A DNA stretch of 57,323 nucleotides from Bacillota bacterium (GCA_021324295.1 JAJPJJ010000078.1:1-57323); one strand, 5' to 3'; counted from the stretch's first letter, positions 20,216 to 28,588 are shown. The notes: generated by a model not told the origin, from the letters alone. Translations and numbers: made by a program.

Positions 20216-20389
20216 TGGATGGCGCGACTGCCGACGGGGGACGCGGCGGTCCCCCTCTCGGCGCCGGCCGGATCGCGGCACCGGAGCGCCGATCCAGCCG
20301 GGCGGCGCGCGGCAAAGGGAGGAGAGCCGGTCGACGCCGTGGAAGGAGAAACCCCCGTGCGCTTCGCCCCGGTGAAGGAGAGATCCCGC

Positions 20390-21346
20390 ATGCTGCGACG
20401 ATGCACCCGGCCTGCCGTTCCCCCGCGCGGGGGCGCGGAGGCGGCGGCGAGGTGCCGGCACGCGTCCGCATCGCCGGTCGCGCCGGCGCGGGCGCGCGCG
20501 GCGCTCGCGTGCGTGCTCGTGCTCGCCGCGGCCCTGGCCACGGCCGGGTGCCAGCCCAGCGTGAGCGTCACCGGGGCGCTGGTGGACCGGCGCCTGCCGC
20601 CGCCGCAGCAGGTGGAGATCCAGCTCGTCACGGACGAAGACAACCGCCCGATCACCCCGGACGCGATCAAGGGCAAGCAGGTCTTCGACGCCAACTGCGC
20701 GGTCTGCCACGGCACGACCGGGCGGGGGAACGGGCCGATGGCGCCCACGCTCGTCGCGCCGCAGAAGGACGTGCTGACGGTGTTCATGGCGCTGTTTGGG
20801 ATCCAGATCCACGAGCCTCCGCTGCCGAGCCATCCGGCCGATTTCCACAACCGCGACCTGGAGAACGTCATCTCGCCCGCGGAGATGTACCAGACCGTCA
20901 CCGAGGGCCGCCCCCACACCGCGATGCCGGCCTTCGGGCCGCAGGCGTCGTTCGGCGCGAACAAGGCCCAGACGCTCACCAACGCGGATCGGTGGGACGC
21001 GAACGCCTACGAGCTGTCCCTGCGCGCCACCCCGCAGAGCCTCAGCGCCGCCAAGGCGCTGTACAACCAGCAGTGCGCGGTCTGCCACGGGGTGAACGGC
21101 GACGGCAAGGGGCCCCGGGGCCCGGAGATGGCGGCGCGCGTGTGGTCGTGGTCGCGCGGCGAGGGGCCGGGCATCTTCACCGATATCAACTACATCGTGC
21201 AGCGAAACCCGAGCGAGCTCATGAACGCGATCCTGGACGGGCACGGCCTGATGCCGGGGTACCGCGGCAAGCTCTCGCCGGAGCAGCTCAACGGGCTTGT
21301 CGACTACATCTACACGTTCTTCTACAAGCACCCCCCGATCCGGTAG
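20390..21346 (+). CDS. Dihaem c-type cytochrome lipoprotein
   Basis: The 318-aa product has a lipobox LATAGC (Cys54) after a hydrophobic segment, so it is probably lipid-anchored on the outer face. Two CXXCH sites, NCAVCHGTTGRGNG (Cys103-His107) and QCAVCHGVNGDGKG (Cys229-His233), define two cytochrome c domains; candidate Met ligands lie in TAMPAFG and LMPGYRG. GAAGGAGAG lies eight bases before ATG 20390. A second good pair (GGAAGGAGAA and GTG 20357) would add 11 residues before the same signal. It precedes the Rieske gene by about 165 bases and is the natural high-potential acceptor for it. Confidence 0.92.
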   Translation: MLRRCTRPAVPPRGGAEAAARCRHASASPVAPARARAALACVLVLAAALATAGCQPSVSVTGALVDRRLPPPQQVEIQLVTDEDNRPITPDAIKGKQVFDANCAVCHGTTGRGNGPMAPTLVAPQKDVLTVFMALFGIQIHEPPLPSHPADFHNRDLENVISPAEMYQTVTEGRPHTAMPAFGPQASFGANKAQTLTNADRWDANAYELSLRATPQSLSAAKALYNQQCAVCHGVNGDGKGPRGPEMAARVWSWSRGEGPGIFTDINYIVQRNPSELMNAILDGHGLMPGYRGKLSPEQLNGLVDYIYTFFYKHPPIR

Positions 21347-21512: not shown

Positions 21513-22211
21513 ATGACGTTCGACCGGCGGAGGCTGCTGCAGGCGCTCACCGCGATCCCCGTGGTCGGGGGGGTCATCGCCATTCTCTCGCCGCTGTTCC
21601 GGTACCTCAAGCCCAACGACAAGCCGTGGCAGATCTTCACCGTCGCCCCGGACGCCCCCGCGGGGGGGGCGCAGATCGTCGGGACGACGCGATCGCTCGC
21701 GAAGCCGTGGGACTATTTCTACTTCACGTACGTGCAGAAGTTCGTCCAGTACGACCCGACCGGGTTCAAGGCGTCCAACATCCCGGGGGTCGCGATCCGG
21801 CTGCCCAGGAAGGTGAGGTTCGCCAACTCGCAGGGGTTCGTCGGCTATCGGGGCGAGACCGACATCGTGCTCTTCCAGCGAATCTGTCCCCACCTGGGCT
21901 GCATCTTCAACTACGAGCCCGACTGGCACAACGTCACCGCGGGGTACGGCGGGTTCACGCCGCCGGCGTTCGAGCGGCACGCCCTCATGGCGTGCCCGTG
22001 CCACTTCAGCATCTACGATCCGGAGTACCCGGCCGACCCCGGCAACGTGATCTCCGGGCCCGCGCCCCGGGGCGCACGGTACTTCGAGTTCCACATCGAC
22101 GGCGAGAACATCGTCGTGACCGGGGCCGAGCTCGGCGGGATCGCCCGCATCGAGCCGGCGGACGCCGCCCCGCCGGCGCGTGGCGGCGAGCACACACGCG
22201 CGCCATCCTGA
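21513..22211 (+). CDS. Rieske 2Fe-2S protein
   Basis: This is the high-potential iron-sulfur subunit of a bc-type complex, moving one electron from quinol to cytochrome c. The 232-aa product has an N-terminal anchor (about 9-30) preceded by DRRRLLQ, a weak Tat-type signal. The cluster site is CPHLGC (Cys125, His127, Cys130) and CPCHFS (Cys161, Cys163, His164), which keeps both cluster ligands and the disulfide pair. An insert of about 30 residues separates the halves. GGGAGGGG precedes the ATG. The cytochrome b gene starts 34 bases downstream. Confidence 0.95.
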   Translation: MTFDRRRLLQALTAIPVVGGVIAILSPLFRYLKPNDKPWQIFTVAPDAPAGGAQIVGTTRSLAKPWDYFYFTYVQKFVQYDPTGFKASNIPGVAIRLPRKVRFANSQGFVGYRGETDIVLFQRICPHLGCIFNYEPDWHNVTAGYGGFTPPAFERHALMACPCHFSIYDPEYPADPGNVISGPAPRGARYFEFHIDGENIVVTGAELGGIARIEPADAAPPARGGEHTRAPS

Positions 22212-22245
22212 GCGTCACCGGACGCGGAGGGCCGGAGGGAGAGCC

Positions 22246-23415
22246 GTGGAGGCCGTGCTGAGCAACCTCAAGGAGTGGCTCCGGGACCGCAAGGAGCACC
22301 TGGACCTCTTCGACGAGACGAAGACCGCCAGACAGGACAACCCCCTCTACATCGTGGGGGGGCTGGTCTGGTTGTCGTGGATGATCGTGATCGTCTCGGG
22401 CGTGATCCTGATGCTGTGGTACATCCCGACGACGACCGCCGCGTACCGCTCGATCGAGCACATCACCCTGGACATCCCGTTCGGCTGGCTGGTGCGCGGG
22501 ATGCACAAGTACGGCGCGGACATGCTGATCACGTGCATCACCCTGCGCATCTACCGGATGTACTTCGCCGGGGAGTACAAGAAGCCGGGCGAGCTGTCGT
22601 GGATGATCCTCTTCGCCTCGCTCGTCCTCGCGATGATCTCCGGGATCACCGGGTACCTGCTGATCTGGAACCAGCGGGCGTTCTGGGCGGCGAAGGTCGT
22701 GCTCACGGTGCCGACGTACTACGACGAGATCCCCGTGCTCGGCAACCTCGGCCTCGGCCGGGCGATCGCGTTCATCTTCCTCGGCGGCCCGGCGGTCGGC
22801 CAGGCCGCGATCACGCGGTTCTACGCGATCCACTTCGGGATCTCCGCGGTGTTCGCGATCCTCGCGGAGATCTTCTTCTACCGGACACGGCGCCGCCGCC
22901 TCAACCTCTCGCCGCTCGCCATCGGGCTCGTGCTGGGCTTCCTGGCGTTCGTGAGCTTCGACCGCCTGACGGAGATGGGGCGGTGGGCCAACCCGAACCG
23001 CACGCCGCTGCCGATCCTCTCGGACTGGTACTTTCTCGCGCTCTACCAGCTCGTGAAGTACATGCCGCCGCTGTGGGCCGGCATCGCCCCGGCCCTGCTG
23101 ATCGGCTACGGGATGCTCGTCCCGTTCATGGACCGGACCCGGGAGACCCGGCCGCTCGAGCGGCCGTTCTTCTTCGTCGTGGGGCTGCTCGCCCTCTTCT
23201 ACTTCATCGTGTTCACCGCGCTCATCATGCTGAACATCGCCGTGATCAGCCGCGACCCGCCGATCATCCTGGGGGTGACGTTCGTCGTGCTGGCGCTCGC
23301 GTTCGTCTGGGAGATCGCCCACCGGCGCCGCAAGGCCCAGCGGGCGGCGCAGCCTGCCCCGCGGGCGGTGCCCGCCCGGCCGGCCCCGGCGCCGCGGCCG
23401 GCGCAGGCCGGGTGA
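22246..23415 (+). CDS. Cytochrome b, full-length type, n-side haem ligands missing
   Basis: The 389-aa product is a cytochrome b with about eight membrane helices. Helix B has His87 (RGMHKYGADM) and helix D has His196 (TRFYAIHFG), the pair for the p-side haem. The partners expected 14-15 residues later are Arg101 (TLRIYRMYFAGEYKKP) and Phe210/Phe211, so the n-side haem should not bind in the usual way. The quinol-site PEWY motif reads SDWY (259-262), with Asp in place of Glu. The segment around YKKPGELSW aligns well with cytochrome b6, so the register is firm. GTG 22246 is preceded by GGAGGGAG. A basic, Ala/Pro-rich tail ends the protein. Confidence 0.9.
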   Translation: MEAVLSNLKEWLRDRKEHLDLFDETKTARQDNPLYIVGGLVWLSWMIVIVSGVILMLWYIPTTTAAYRSIEHITLDIPFGWLVRGMHKYGADMLITCITLRIYRMYFAGEYKKPGELSWMILFASLVLAMISGITGYLLIWNQRAFWAAKVVLTVPTYYDEIPVLGNLGLGRAIAFIFLGGPAVGQAAITRFYAIHFGISAVFAILAEIFFYRTRRRRLNLSPLAIGLVLGFLAFVSFDRLTEMGRWANPNRTPLPILSDWYFLALYQLVKYMPPLWAGIAPALLIGYGMLVPFMDRTRETRPLERPFFFVVGLLALFYFIVFTALIMLNIAVISRDPPIILGVTFVVLALAFVWEIAHRRRKAQRAAQPAPRAVPARPAPAPRPAQAG

Positions 23416-23419
23416 GCCG

Positions 23420-23761
23420 ATGCGGCGAAAGGCGCTCTTCTACGTGCTGCTGGCCGCCGCGACGGTGTCGCTCAGCCAGCTCCTCGCCGCGTGGCGGGCG
23501 TGGCGCGCCGCGGCGACGCTCGAGGGCGGCGCAACCGTCGCGGCGTACGCGCTGGCCGTCCTGGCGGCGCTGCTCTGGCTGGGGTTCATCCTGTACGAGG
23601 TGGACCGGGCGGCCGGCCGCGTCCGCCACCGGGTGGCGCTCTACGAGTGGGTGCTGACGGTGCGCCGCCCGCCGGAGCGGCGCACGGGGACGGCGGGGCG
23701 CGGCGGGGGCGAGTGGACGTGGCGCGATGAGGCGCGGGAGGCGGGGCAGCGGCATGGGTGA
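23420..23761 (+). CDS. Small two-helix membrane protein of the cytochrome b cluster
   Basis: I do not recognise this 113-aa protein. It has two predicted membrane helices (LFYVLLAAATVSLSQLLAAW and AAYALAVLAALLWLGFILYE), followed by an arginine-rich segment of about 45 residues that should be cytoplasmic. There are no haem or metal motifs. It starts five bases after the cytochrome b stop and overlaps the next small gene by 8 bases, so it is surely in the operon. An accessory subunit of the complex is the simplest reading. Confidence 0.75.
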   Translation: MRRKALFYVLLAAATVSLSQLLAAWRAWRAAATLEGGATVAAYALAVLAALLWLGFILYEVDRAAGRVRHRVALYEWVLTVRRPPERRTGTAGRGGGEWTWRDEAREAGQRHG

Positions 23762-23948
23762 CCGCGCGGCGGCGTACGGGGCGGGGATCGTGCTCCTCGC
23801 GCTCCTCAGCCTCCTCTGCGTCATCGGGATCGTCTGGGGGGAGCTGACCGGCCACCGCCTCGTCACCGGGGCGCTCGTCGGCGTGGTGTTGCTCGCCTAC
23901 TCCTTTGTCCTGCTGTTCCTGCGCAAGGGAGGGTTCACGGGTGTATAA
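23754..23948 (+). CDS. Small two-helix membrane protein, 64 aa
   Basis: The product consists almost entirely of two hydrophobic helices (GIVLLALLSLLCVIGIVWGE and LVTGALVGVVLLAYSFVLLF) with a short polar turn GHR and a Lys/Gly end. Start ATG 23754 overlaps the previous gene by 8 bases, and its stop overlaps the GTG of the cytochrome b-ferredoxin gene by 8 bases. It has no named family that I can see. Position and size suggest a structural subunit like the small helices of b6f or bc1 complexes. Confidence 0.72.
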   Translation: MGDRAAAYGAGIVLLALLSLLCVIGIVWGELTGHRLVTGALVGVVLLAYSFVLLFLRKGGFTGV

Positions 23949-25104
23949 GCGGCTGCTGCGCCGGCTCCTCGGCTGGACGCTCGCGCTCGACGTGTGGGTC
24001 AACCGCGTCTATCCGGCCGACTTCAACCCCCTGTACTACACCGGCGGGCTGTCCAACCTGTTCCTCACGATCCTCGTGCTCTCGGGGATCTTCCTGTTCT
24101 TCTACTACGTGCCGTCGTTCAACGACGCGTACACGTCGGTCCAGTTCATCACGGCCGAGGTGCCGTACGGCCAGATCATTCGCGGGATCCACCGCTATGC
24201 GGCGGACGGCTTCATCATCGCAATCCTGCTCCACTTCTTCCGGAACTGGTTCACGGAGCGGTTCCGCTTCTCCCGCGACGAGCCGTGGATCAGCGGGATG
24301 ATGCTCCTGGTGTTCGCGGGGTTCATCGGCGTGACCGGGTACGTGCTGGTGTGGGACCAGCGCAGCGCGCTGCTGGTGGCGATGACCGGCAACTCGCTGG
24401 CGTCGATCCCGCTGGTCGGCGGCTGGCTGCGCTCCGCGCTGTTCGGCGGGACCGGGCTCACCAACCTGCTGCTGCCCCGGATGCTGTACCTGCACATCGG
24501 CCCGGCGGTCTTCCTCTACATCCTGCTGTGGTGGCACTACGTGCGCATCCGCCACCCCAAGGTCTGGCCGCCCGCCGTCTGGACCCTCTTCGCGCTCGGG
24601 ATCGTCATGCTCTTGGCCGGCGTGCTGCCGGTGACCAGCCAGCCGCCGGCGTCGGCGCTCTCCACGCCGGGCCGCCTGGCGGTGGATTGGTTCTTCCTGC
24701 TGCCGTACGTGGGTCTCAAGTACCTGCCGCCGCTCGGGCTGATCCTCGTCGGCGCGGTCATCGTCGCGTACGGGCTGTACATTCCCTATCAGCTCCCGGA
24801 GACGGAGACGGAGCTCGGGATCCGGGACTCGGGGGTCGCGCAGGTCATCGACGCCAACTGCACCGGCTGCGAGCTGTGCTACTACGACTGCCCCTACGAT
24901 GCCATCGTGATGGTGCCGAGTCCACATCCCGGCGTCACGAAGGCCGCACAGGCGCGCAAGCTCCTGGCTGTGGTCCTCGAGTCACGCTGCGTCGAGTGCG
25001 GCATCTGCATCGGGGCGTGCCCGTTCGAGGCGCTCGAGCTGCCGCGCTACCTCGAGCGGGACATCCACGAGAAGGTGTTGAGCGCATGCCGAAGCGAGAC
25101 GTGA
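23941..25104 (+). CDS. Cytochrome b fused to a 2x[4Fe-4S] ferredoxin domain
   Basis: The 387-aa protein begins as a cytochrome b. Helix B has His84 and His98 (IHRYAADGFIIAILLHFF) and helix D has His185 and His199 (YLHIGPAVFLYILLWWH), so both b haems can bind. The quinol-site motif is VDWF (248-251). After helix F (GLILVGAVIVAYGLYIPY) the usual last helices are missing. A ferredoxin domain follows, with Cys307/310/313/317 (NCTGCELCYYDCPYD) and Cys350/353/356/360 (RCVECGICIGACPFE). Six helices place this domain in the cytoplasm. GTG 23941 has AGGGAGGG upstream. The MvhD-family gene follows after 16 bases. Confidence 0.93.
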   Translation: MYKRLLRRLLGWTLALDVWVNRVYPADFNPLYYTGGLSNLFLTILVLSGIFLFFYYVPSFNDAYTSVQFITAEVPYGQIIRGIHRYAADGFIIAILLHFFRNWFTERFRFSRDEPWISGMMLLVFAGFIGVTGYVLVWDQRSALLVAMTGNSLASIPLVGGWLRSALFGGTGLTNLLLPRMLYLHIGPAVFLYILLWWHYVRIRHPKVWPPAVWTLFALGIVMLLAGVLPVTSQPPASALSTPGRLAVDWFFLLPYVGLKYLPPLGLILVGAVIVAYGLYIPYQLPETETELGIRDSGVAQVIDANCTGCELCYYDCPYDAIVMVPSPHPGVTKAAQARKLLAVVLESRCVECGICIGACPFEALELPRYLERDIHEKVLSACRSET

Positions 25105-25120
25105 GGCGGGGGGAGGCGCG

Positions 25121-25660
25121 ATGACCGCGGACGCGCGGCGGCCCAGGATCGTCGGGTTCCTCTGCGACTACGCGGTGAGCCGCGAGGGGATCGTCCGCGA
25201 GGACGGCACGATGCGGGATCTCCCCAACGTGACGCTGATCCAGGTGCCGTGCTCGGGGTTCGTCCGGCCCGCGTGGCTCGAGTTCGCCCTGCGGAACGGC
25301 GCGGAGGGCGCGTTCGTCTGCGGGTGCCCGCTGGGAGACTGCTTCAACCGCCTGGGCAATAACCTGATTGGGGACCGGGTGGCGCAGATGCGGCGCCGGC
25401 TCGAGCGGCAGAAGATCCACCCCGATCGCGTGGCGACGATCTACCACGGCCTCCACGAGCAGGCCGAGTTCGTGGCCGCGGTCCGCGCGTTCAGCGAGCG
25501 CGTCGCGGCCCTGCCCGGCCCTGTCGTGCCCGCGCCGAGGACGGCGGCGGCGCGGCCGCCCGCGAGCCCCACCCGGTCGCCGGGGACCGGCGTGACGGGC
25601 GGCGCGCCCGGCCCGGCCGCCGGCCCGGGCGCGCCGCCGGGCGAACAGGAGGGAGGATGA
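25121..25660 (+). CDS. MvhD/FlpD-family iron-sulfur electron-transfer subunit
   Basis: The family links [NiFe]-hydrogenase or formate dehydrogenase to HdrA in electron-bifurcating complexes. The first 120 of 179 residues match it: PRIVGFLCDY, VPCSGFVRP, and EGAFVCGCPLGDCFNRLGN. Cysteines are at 15, 44, 67, 69 and 74. The usual second cysteine of the N-terminal FCCxWC motif is replaced (CDYA), so the 2Fe-2S site may differ. The last 50 residues are a Pro/Ala/Gly-rich tail. No hydrogenase or Hdr gene is in the window; its neighbour is the ferredoxin-fused cytochrome b, the likely partner. Confidence 0.88.
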   Translation: MTADARRPRIVGFLCDYAVSREGIVREDGTMRDLPNVTLIQVPCSGFVRPAWLEFALRNGAEGAFVCGCPLGDCFNRLGNNLIGDRVAQMRRRLERQKIHPDRVATIYHGLHEQAEFVAAVRAFSERVAALPGPVVPAPRTAAARPPASPTRSPGTGVTGGAPGPAAGPGAPPGEQEGG

Positions 25661-25830
25661 TGGCAGAGCACCCACCGTCTGCGACGCCGGCTCCGGCATC
25701 TCGCGGAGCCGAGGGAGCGGCGCCCGGCCCGGCCGCCACCGTGGTGTACTGGCGGTACCTGATCTTCTGGCTGCTGTTCTTCGGGCTCCTCTATTTCATC
25801 TCGCTGTACGGCATCGTCGCAGAGGCGTAG
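25660..25830 (+). CDS. Small single-helix membrane protein closing the cluster
   Basis: A 56-codon frame begins at ATG 25660, seven bases after AGGAGG; an ATG one codon earlier overlaps the MvhD stop. The product has a 25-residue Pro/Ala-rich soluble start, then VVYWRYLIFWLLFFGLLYFI as a membrane helix and a short SLYGIVAEA end. I know no family for it. It is translationally coupled to the MvhD-like gene, so it probably belongs to the same complex. Confidence 0.7.
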   Translation: MAEHPPSATPAPASRGAEGAAPGPAATVVYWRYLIFWLLFFGLLYFISLYGIVAEA

Positions 25831-27534: not shown

Positions 27535-27870
27535 CGCCGGGGGACCCGGGCCCGTGACCCGGGTATCGCGGCGTGGCCGCACGGCTTGGGAGCTGAAGCG
27601 GCCTGTCTGCGTGCGTTGGGGGCCCGGGCCTGTGACCCGAGGTATCGTGACGTGGGCAAGCGGCCTTGGACTTGAAGCGAGCTGCCTCCGCGCGCTGGGG
27701 GCCCGGGCCTGTGACCCGGGTATCGTGACGTGGGCAAGCGGCCTTGGACTTGAAACGAGCTGCCTCCGTGCGCTGGGGGCCCGGGCCTGTGACCCGAGGC
27801 ATCGTGACGTGGGCAAGCGGCCTTGGACTTGAAGCGAGCTGCCTCCGTGCGCTGGGGGCCCGGGCCTGTA
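27535..27870. repeat. Tandem array of 78/79-bp units, block 1
   Basis: CCCGGG centres occur at 27545, 27623, 27702, 27780 and 27859, so the period is 78 or 79 bases. Each unit is centred on GGCCCGGGCC and continues with GTGACCC, then ATCGTGACGTGGGCAAGC, then CTTGGACTTGAAGCGAGCT. The first unit is more diverged and the last is cut off where the DUF4321 gene begins. One-base length changes alternate between units, so no frame stays open for functional reasons. No unique spacers occur. Confidence 0.9.
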
Positions 27871-27888
27871 AGTCGCGGGAGGGGAGCG

Positions 27889-28158
27889 GTGGCCAGGGAG
27901 GCCAAGCGGGCGCGAGAGCCGTGGTGGGTGCTCATCGTCATCGTCGTCGCTGGAGCGATGCTGGGCAGCGTCTTCGCCGATGCGGTCGGCGACTTCACCT
28001 ATCTGGCGCCGCTCGCTCGCTCGGTGGCCTTCGGCATCAATCCGCCGATCACGCTGGACCTGCACGTGCTCACCCTCACGCTCGGGTTCACCGTGCGGTT
28101 GAACCTTTCTATCGTCCTTGGTATAATGGCCGCGATTTACCTGTTCCGCGTGCTGTAG
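27889..28158 (+). CDS. DUF4321 family small membrane protein
   Basis: The 89-aa product has an N-terminal helix (WWVLIVIVVAGAMLGSVFAD) and a second half with SVAFGINPPITLDLHVLTLT and LNLSIVLGIMAAIYLF. This is the pattern of DUF4321, found next to radC/mreB in Firmicutes-like genomes. Function is unknown. GTG 27889 follows GGGAGGGGAG; an upstream in-frame ATG at 27823 lies inside the repeat array and is rejected. The gene is bracketed by the two repeat blocks, and its last 60 bases carry a promoter. Confidence 0.88.
   Translation: MAREAKRAREPWWVLIVIVVAGAMLGSVFADAVGDFTYLAPLARSVAFGINPPITLDLHVLTLTLGFTVRLNLSIVLGIMAAIYLFRVL
28099..28127 (+). promoter_or_regulatory. Near-consensus promoter inside the DUF4321 3' end
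   Basis: TTGAAC (28099-28104), a 17-base spacer and TATAAT (28122-28127) with an extended TGG at 28119-28121. This is one of the two best sigma-70-type promoters in the window. It would start near 28134 and read through the second repeat block toward radC, whose ATG is about 455 bases away. Confidence 0.82.
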
Positions 28159-28284
28159 CGATGGGCGCACGCGGCCAGGCGTCGAGGGGGTGGGGTGGCG
28201 CGCCCGCAGAGCCGCGCCGGCCTCGCCCCATTGCTGTCCATGAGCGGTGTCGCGGCGAGGCGGCAGCGGAGTTGACGCGGCCTG

Positions 28285-28470
28285 CCCCGGGTGCGTTGGG
28301 GACCCGGGCCTGTAACACGGGCCTCGCGACGCCGGGAGACGGCAGTGGAAGCGACGTGTCGTGGTCCGGCCGCTGGGGGCCCGGGCCTGTGAGCCGGGTA
28401 TCGCGGCGTGGGCGCACGGCTTTGGAATTGAAGCGGCCTGCCTCCGTGCGCTGGGGGCCCGGGCCTTTAG
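28285..28470. repeat. Tandem array of 77-78-bp units, block 2
   Basis: CCCGGG centres at 28303, 28380 and 28458 continue the family seen before the DUF4321 gene. Units here are more diverged (GTAACACGGGCCTCGCGACG, GTGAGCCGGGTATCGCGGCG). The stretch 28159-28588 otherwise holds no gene. The array ends in an AT-richer patch at 28470-28500. Confidence 0.85.
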
Positions 28471-28588
28471 CCTTAGGTCCAGATTTCGATATAGCTACAC
28501 CCGCCGGCGTGGCCGCCGGTTCGAAGTGAGCAACGGCCGATCGGGGGCAGCCCTGACGCAGGTCCCCAACCCAGTCCGGCGACAACGG

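Follow-up and report, generated by a model that had tools for sequence, protein, structure and literature searches.

Two complementary cytochromes b in a conserved Rieske gene cluster of the Sysuimicrobiota: a probable heterodimeric complex III with a ferredoxin-FlpD connection to the cytoplasm

Here we describe a gene cluster on a stretch of 57,323 nucleotides (JAJPJJ010000078.1, positions 1-57323, of assembly GCA_021324295.1, labelled Bacillota bacterium; this whole stretch is called the window below) that encodes a Rieske protein, two unlike cytochromes b, three small membrane proteins and an iron-sulfur protein of the FlpD/MvhD family. The two cytochromes b, which we call cytochrome b1 and cytochrome b-Fd (the latter carrying a C-terminal ferredoxin (Fd) domain), are complementary: each has what the other has lost, namely the ligands of haem bH in the one case and the tyrosine of the Qo site in the other. 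We consider it probable that the cluster encodes the complex III of the phylum Sysuimicrobiota, in the form of an obligate b1/b-Fd heterodimer to which the ferredoxin domain and FlpD add an iron-sulfur wire. With somewhat less assurance, we also favour the wider proposal that this is a natural, phylum-wide heterodimeric complex III in which electron transfer between the two haems bL would belong to normal catalysis, and in which electrons at the level of ferredoxin would be exchanged with the cytoplasm.

An earlier sequence-only reading of the window had placed all these genes where we find them, on one strand, and had proposed a quinol-cytochrome c complex in electronic contact with the cytoplasm; our analysis supports such a complex, the contact being made by iron-sulfur domains. 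It had also recognized that the two cytochromes b are different, but it had missed the loss of the haem bH ligands in the first of them, the complementarity of the two halves and, hence, the asymmetric heterodimer that they probably form.

Conservation of the cluster and complementarity of its two cytochromes b

The genome to which the window belongs (G000; G-numbers and L-numbers denote the genomes and loci of this analysis, respectively) is a member of the phylum Sysuimicrobiota (CSP1-3). Public genomes carrying the locus are labelled 'Terrabacteria group bacterium ANGP1', Armatimonadetes (metagenome-assembled genomes) or HRbin32, and we take all of these to represent the phylum CSP1-3, which received the name Sysuimicrobiota in PMC11604079. 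The phylum was sampled with 43 genomes from 22 genera, and gene order was compared in 20 larger fetched loci from seven families, two loci being cut or incomplete at an edge. Almost all of the genomes used are metagenome assemblies, about 30 independent ones of which are concordant. The genes and motifs of the locus, which lies entirely on the + strand, are listed below; residue numbers are counted from the open reading frame (ORF) starts at 22180 (cytochrome b1) and 23905 (cytochrome b-Fd).

20219-21346, +: dihaem cytochrome c lipoprotein (two CxxCH motifs, lipobox ATAGC; Pfam Cytochrome_CBB3/Cytochrom_C); start uncertain
21513-22211, +: Rieske [2Fe-2S] protein with a single N-terminal membrane helix (CPHLGC...CPCHFS; NCBIfam Rieske models)
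22180-23415, +: cytochrome b1 (Pfam Cytochrome_B, 2e-33); probable start GTG at 22246
22546-22548, +: codon for Arg123 of cytochrome b1, which stands in for the first haem bH ligand
22867-22869: codon for Glu230 of cytochrome b1
22873-22875, +: codon for Phe232 of cytochrome b1, which stands in for the second haem bH ligand
23020-23031, +: Qo-site motif SDWY of cytochrome b1
23420-23761, +: small protein 1, two membrane helices predicted by hydropathy; position conserved
23727-23948, +: small protein 2, two membrane helices predicted by hydropathy; position conserved
23905-25104, +: cytochrome b-Fd (Pfam Cytochrome_B and Fer4); probable start GTG at 23941, inside the 3' end of the gene for small protein 2
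24682-24693, +: degenerate Qo motif VDWF of cytochrome b-Fd
24856-25038, +: 2x[4Fe-4S] ferredoxin domain of cytochrome b-Fd
25121-25660, +: FlpD/MvhD-family iron-sulfur protein (Pfam FlpD, 3e-23; 5odc_D, 7e-15)
25657-25830, +: small protein 3, single predicted membrane helix; recognized in part of the phylum only

The order cytochrome c, Rieske protein, cytochrome b1, small proteins, cytochrome b-Fd and FlpD was unchanged in all 20 loci, and cytochrome b-Fd was present in 37 of the 43 genomes and in 21 of the 22 genera. Thus, the arrangement of the genes is not due to chance. Small proteins 1 and 2 were recognized in almost every locus, and small protein 3 chiefly in the window's own family. 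The dihaem cytochrome c gene that had been reported to precede the cluster is kept upstream of the Rieske gene in other genomes too; as this lipoprotein gene adjoins the Rieske gene, the locus provides the membrane-bound c-type cytochrome that is characteristic of bc1/b6f complexes. The cluster contains a single Rieske gene, whose product has the 2 Cys + 2 His cluster motif of the bc1/b6f Rieske proteins, its four cysteine and two histidine ligands and a serine being invariant (29/29).

In the bc1 fold, haems bL and bH each bind one histidine of helix B and one of helix D, 14 residues apart. The bL ligands of cytochrome b1 are histidines in 30 of 30 sequences. The place of the first bH ligand, however, is taken by arginine in all 30, and that of the second by Phe, Tyr, Leu, Trp or Met, and never by histidine, in 31 of 31. 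For comparison, 69 cytochromes b were aligned, and the bH ligands are histidines in each of the 55 other than b1, among which are 11 conventional cytochromes b of this phylum. The two bis-histidine haems that define the bc1/b6f type can therefore be accommodated by cytochrome b-Fd and not by cytochrome b1. Two residues ahead of the second bH place, Glu230 is invariant, and it may form a salt bridge with Arg123 at the former haem bH site. The Qo site, on the other hand, appears intact, with a PEWY-type motif (SDWY) that is invariant in 31 of 31 sequences. Unusual haem ligation exists in other proteins, and if cytochrome b1 were to hold haem bH by other ligands the complex would not be asymmetric. 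We regard this as very improbable, because the whole protein contains exactly two conserved histidines, no conserved alternative histidine ligand was found in it, and the bH places are occupied by an invariant arginine and by a residue that is either aromatic or hydrophobic, close to the invariant glutamate.

Cytochrome b-Fd presents the reverse pattern. It has kept the four haem histidines (32/32), and all eight cysteines of its C-terminal 2x[4Fe-4S] ferredoxin domain are found in no fewer than 31 of the 32 sequences. At its Qo place, none of the sequences has the tyrosine and the tryptophan is often gone too; inspection of the cd1 helix revealed that it lacks the [FY]W[AG] typical of Qo-competent cytochromes b. 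The cysteine that anchors haem ci in b6f complexes is replaced by Tyr or Phe in cytochrome b-Fd, and by Ile in the b1 of the window. Helix counting, homology with b6/subunit IV and hydropathy suggest that cytochrome b-Fd has six helices and that its ferredoxin domain is located on the cytoplasmic side, near haem bH. A model of a Deltaproteobacterial protein in which cytochrome b-Fd is fused to FlpD (predicted template modelling score (pTM) 0.74) contains six long helices followed by the ferredoxin and FlpD domains, and matches the cytochrome b of bc1 and the FlpD of Hdr complexes.

In seven genomes (G001, G002, G020, G034, G036, G038 and G040) the only matches to Cytochrome_B are b1 and b-Fd, and the b1/b-Fd complex should therefore be their complex III. 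Genomes G000, G028 and G032 encode further conventional cytochromes b in addition to these two. PF02621, of the futalosine pathway to menaquinone, was not found in G000. The fused cytochrome b was not found in genus g11 (G008-G011), where HdrA plus FlpD is present. Two of its genomes, G008 and G011, are also without any haem-copper oxidase subunit I, and the simultaneous absence of the complex and the oxidase ties the complex to aerobic respiration. These two genomes, which encode HdrA and a canonical FlpD, apparently represent an anaerobic branch.

As to the surroundings of the cluster, three loci (L043 1391-3899, L044 1689-4143 and L051 7571-10085) contain, directly 3' of the FlpD gene, genes for a divergent COX1-like protein and for CcoO/CcoP-like cytochromes c, suggesting a linked terminal oxidase. 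The COX1-like gene was seen at this place in two families only. In the window, a polyprenyl synthetase gene is located downstream of small protein 3, and a degenerate, GC-rich repeat whose period is close to 78 bases occurs about seven times at 27540-28530, in two groups that flank a gene for a small membrane protein.

The putative ferredoxin-FlpD wire and its relatives

Besides its match to the FlpD domain, the iron-sulfur protein of the cluster has four canonical cysteines, not five, in practically all of 33 sequences. The 'WC' cysteine is Ala or Ser in 33 of 33; it is kept in the HdrA-linked FlpD of the same phylum, and it is also absent from the eNOR-linked FlpD domains that we inspected. 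HdrA2 aligns, in two consecutive stretches, with the ferredoxin domain and FlpD, and in G000 the HdrA2 model matches only the FlpD of the cluster and the ferredoxin domain of the adjoining cytochrome b. The absence of HdrA, originally noted for the window, thus holds for the whole of genome G000, although no genome-wide search was made for the hydrogenase partner. The HdrA flavoprotein was likewise not found in G001, G002, G028, G032 and G034. A link with flavin-based bifurcation of the MvhD/HdrA type, which the family assignment had brought to mind, is not borne out, since FlpD is one canonical cysteine short and several carriers, including the window's genome, have no HdrA; for these genomes we have rejected an HdrA/hydrogenase link for FlpD.

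FlpD works with cytochrome b-Fd, as is shown by Deltaproteobacterial loci and a Defluviimonas plasmid in which a single polypeptide comprises both. Their co-occurrence, on which the sequence-only reading had let its interpretation depend, is observed across the phylum as well. The distribution outside the phylum was assessed by one pattern scan of the contigs of 84,980 species with the cytochrome b-Fd alignment, and by genome samples. The scan detected cytochrome b-Fd of the cluster type only in the phylum, in addition to Deltaproteobacterial homologues that are about 33% identical. Among 695 sampled genomes of Chloroflexota and the Desulfobacterota group, 22 encode a cytochrome b-Fd; in the loci fetched from these carriers it is mostly found beside COX2, haem-copper subunit I and SCO, and in none of them was a Rieske gene found near it. 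No strong match to cytochrome b1 was obtained in 798 genomes from the phyla of two further loci, in searches that had no positive control.

Fusions of cytochrome b, ferredoxin and FlpD stand beside COX2, an eNOR-type subunit I and SCO in loci L083-L099 (Deltaproteobacteria), L114 (Defluviimonas plasmid NZ_CP156080) and L163-L178, and look like a regular partner of eNOR-type nitric oxide reductases. The subunit I of L083 and L114 has a glutamine at the place of the cross-linked tyrosine of oxygen reductases (HSSQQ), a motif that is listed for eNOR in PMC8756737, the appendix of which also lists a cytochrome b6/FlpD neighbour. The cluster described here has neither COX2 nor an eNOR subunit I. 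In a cytochrome b tree, which was made by a quick method with a midpoint root and has some long branches, b-Fd groups with the eNOR-linked clade and b1 with the conventional cytochromes b, each with a Shimodaira-Hasegawa-like approximate likelihood ratio test (SH-aLRT) support of 99. Together, these placements make the complex look like a merger of two lineages. A tree of FlpD did not separate an eNOR-linked from an HdrA-linked origin of the cluster protein.

Proposed mechanism and alternatives

The simplest reading is a complex of one b1 and one b-Fd, given the single Rieske gene, the fixed gene order, and the seven genomes in which no other cytochrome b was found. A homodimer of b1, having no haem bH, would be unable to complete a Q cycle; the Qo site of b-Fd is poor, and its ancestry is Rieske-free. 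The homodimer symmetry that is typical of bc1/b6f complexes is something that the sequences argue against here. In the heterodimer that we propose, b1 would provide the only competent Qo site, at which it would oxidize quinol together with the Rieske protein and the dihaem cytochrome c. The first electron of quinol would pass via the Rieske protein to cytochrome c, and the second to haem bL of b1, from where it would proceed to haem bL and then haem bH of b-Fd and reach the putative Qi side. Crossing between the two bL haems would be compulsory, since b1 lacks haem bH. The iron-sulfur wire would consist of the ferredoxin domain of b-Fd, with FlpD docked to it, and would be situated cytoplasmically to haem bH. 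A heterodimer of this kind is plausible because the same cofactor pattern works in the engineered, cross-inactivated bc1 heterodimers of Rhodobacter (B-B and BS-B), in which mutation G158W in one half and H212N in the other restrict Qo to one half and the bH/Qi branch to the opposite half, which forces bL-bL crossing, and in which this transfer occurs on a millisecond, catalytically relevant scale (PMC4330944). The Rhodobacter heterodimers, however, are made by mutations in a fused cytochrome b, whereas the cluster consists of two unlike natural genes that are found phylum-wide and has an iron-sulfur wire in addition.

The sequence-only reading had allowed for either a splitting or a merging of electron flow, of which merging now seems the likelier. 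The most likely role of the wire, which we hold with about even confidence, is to inject electrons from a reduced cytoplasmic donor at bH/Qi, such that Qi would receive one of its electrons from Qo and the other from the cytoplasm. Ferredoxins of the 2x[4Fe-4S] type usually have potentials far below that of haem bH, and electrons enter Hdr-Mvh through FlpD (5odc). Genes of the 2-oxoacid:ferredoxin oxidoreductase family (PF01558), the products of which may supply reduced ferredoxin, were present in six of six genomes tested. Taken together with the fact that eNOR is an electron sink, these considerations make electron input the default. On the other hand, the same heterodimer could have an outward wire and bifurcate quinol, with cytochrome c receiving one electron while the other travels through bL-bL-bH-Fd-FlpD to a cytoplasmic acceptor of low potential. 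CO2 fixation would then be supplied with NAD(P)H or reduced ferredoxin. A parallel proposal has been made for Rieske/cytochrome b complexes of anammox bacteria that have cytoplasmic NAD(P) oxidoreductases (PMC12954380), and genes of the reductive glycine pathway are present in all families of the phylum (PMC11604079). However, the cluster contains no flavoprotein or NAD(P) enzyme, and outward flow demands b haems of unusually low potential as well as a low-potential acceptor, which was not found here. Moreover, export to the negative side costs energy against the membrane potential, and the close eNOR-linked homologues serve an enzyme that consumes electrons. We consider an outward wire the foremost alternative, though a doubtful one.

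Other alternatives concern the complex itself. The ferredoxin and FlpD parts might be an ancestral leftover of eNOR type that merely stabilizes a complex III with ordinary electron flow, as could be suggested by the missing canonical cysteine of FlpD, by the cysteine-less FlpD domains of some Chloroflexota, and by the lack of an obvious electron donor or acceptor. A purely structural part, however, needs no cysteines, and those of both domains have been kept almost throughout, which makes this explanation unlikely in our view. It is also conceivable that the operon makes two machines, i.e., a homodimer of b1 with the Rieske protein and a ferredoxin-quinone oxidoreductase composed of b-Fd and FlpD. 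The differing ancestry of the two cytochromes b is compatible with this, as is the fact that homologues of b-Fd elsewhere operate without a Rieske protein. Yet the first of these machines would leave the seven genomes that have no other cytochrome b without a finished Q cycle, and the b1 and b-Fd genes occur together in every one of the 20 fetched loci; two separate machines therefore appear quite improbable.

It should be noted that some observations weigh against an electron-carrying heterodimer as proposed above. No dedicated partner of FlpD was found, and several carriers are without HdrA. In eNOR-relative loci of Chloroflexota (L166 6253-8361, L171 5079-7217 and similar ones), the fused FlpD part, which is followed in these ORFs by an extra C-terminal extension, has lost its iron-sulfur cluster cysteines, and FlpD need not, therefore, carry electrons in every relative. 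For the window's own cytochrome b-Fd, AlphaFold gave a model too poor for use, with a predicted local distance difference test score (pLDDT) of 54.

Comparison with known systems and significance

The cluster shares with the cytochrome bc1/b6f complexes a Rieske protein, a cytochrome b, a c-type cytochrome, a Qo motif and small membrane subunits, but it differs from them in having two unlike cytochromes b, of which one has lost bH and the other has a degraded Qo site, and in lacking the haem ci cysteine. The anammox complexes Kuste4569-4574 and Kustd1480-1485 (PMC12954380) are likewise of the Rieske/cytochrome b type, and an iron-sulfur path links their b haems to the cytoplasmic side. Those complexes, however, contain a flavin NAD(P) oxidoreductase, multihaem cytochromes c and a modelled homodimer of cytochrome b that includes a novel b haem, whereas the cluster has ferredoxin-FlpD, two unlike cytochromes b and no flavin, no flavin NAD(P) oxidoreductase subunit being present among its genes. 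The proteins of the eNOR operons (Desulfobacterota-type, Chloroflexota and Defluviimonas plasmid) have the same domain order of cytochrome b, 2x[4Fe-4S] and FlpD, and the window's b-Fd groups with them; in their case, though, FlpD is fused, the neighbours are COX2, eNOR subunit I and SCO, and the fetched loci have no adjoining Rieske or b1 gene. With the bifurcating heterodisulfide reductase HdrA2/MvhD, the likeness is limited to the consecutive HdrA2 parts to which ferredoxin and FlpD align: the cluster has no HdrA flavin domain, its FlpD has four cysteines rather than five, and a membrane cytochrome b is attached.

We found no description in the open PubMed Central literature of FlpD/MvhD with a Rieske protein, of a heterodimeric cytochrome b or of a cytochrome b without haem bH, and the words Rieske, FlpD, Hdr, complex III and cytochrome b are absent from the paper on the phylum (PMC11604079).

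It has long been debated whether electrons pass from one half of complex III to the other in living cells, and the evidence comes mainly from engineered heterodimers. If our proposal is correct, a natural complex in which crossing is the only exit would answer this debate and would be directly testable. It would also mean that the Sysuimicrobiota, a phylum common in soils and hot springs, possess a complex III that is built from halves of two ancestries and has an iron-sulfur link to cytoplasmic metabolism.

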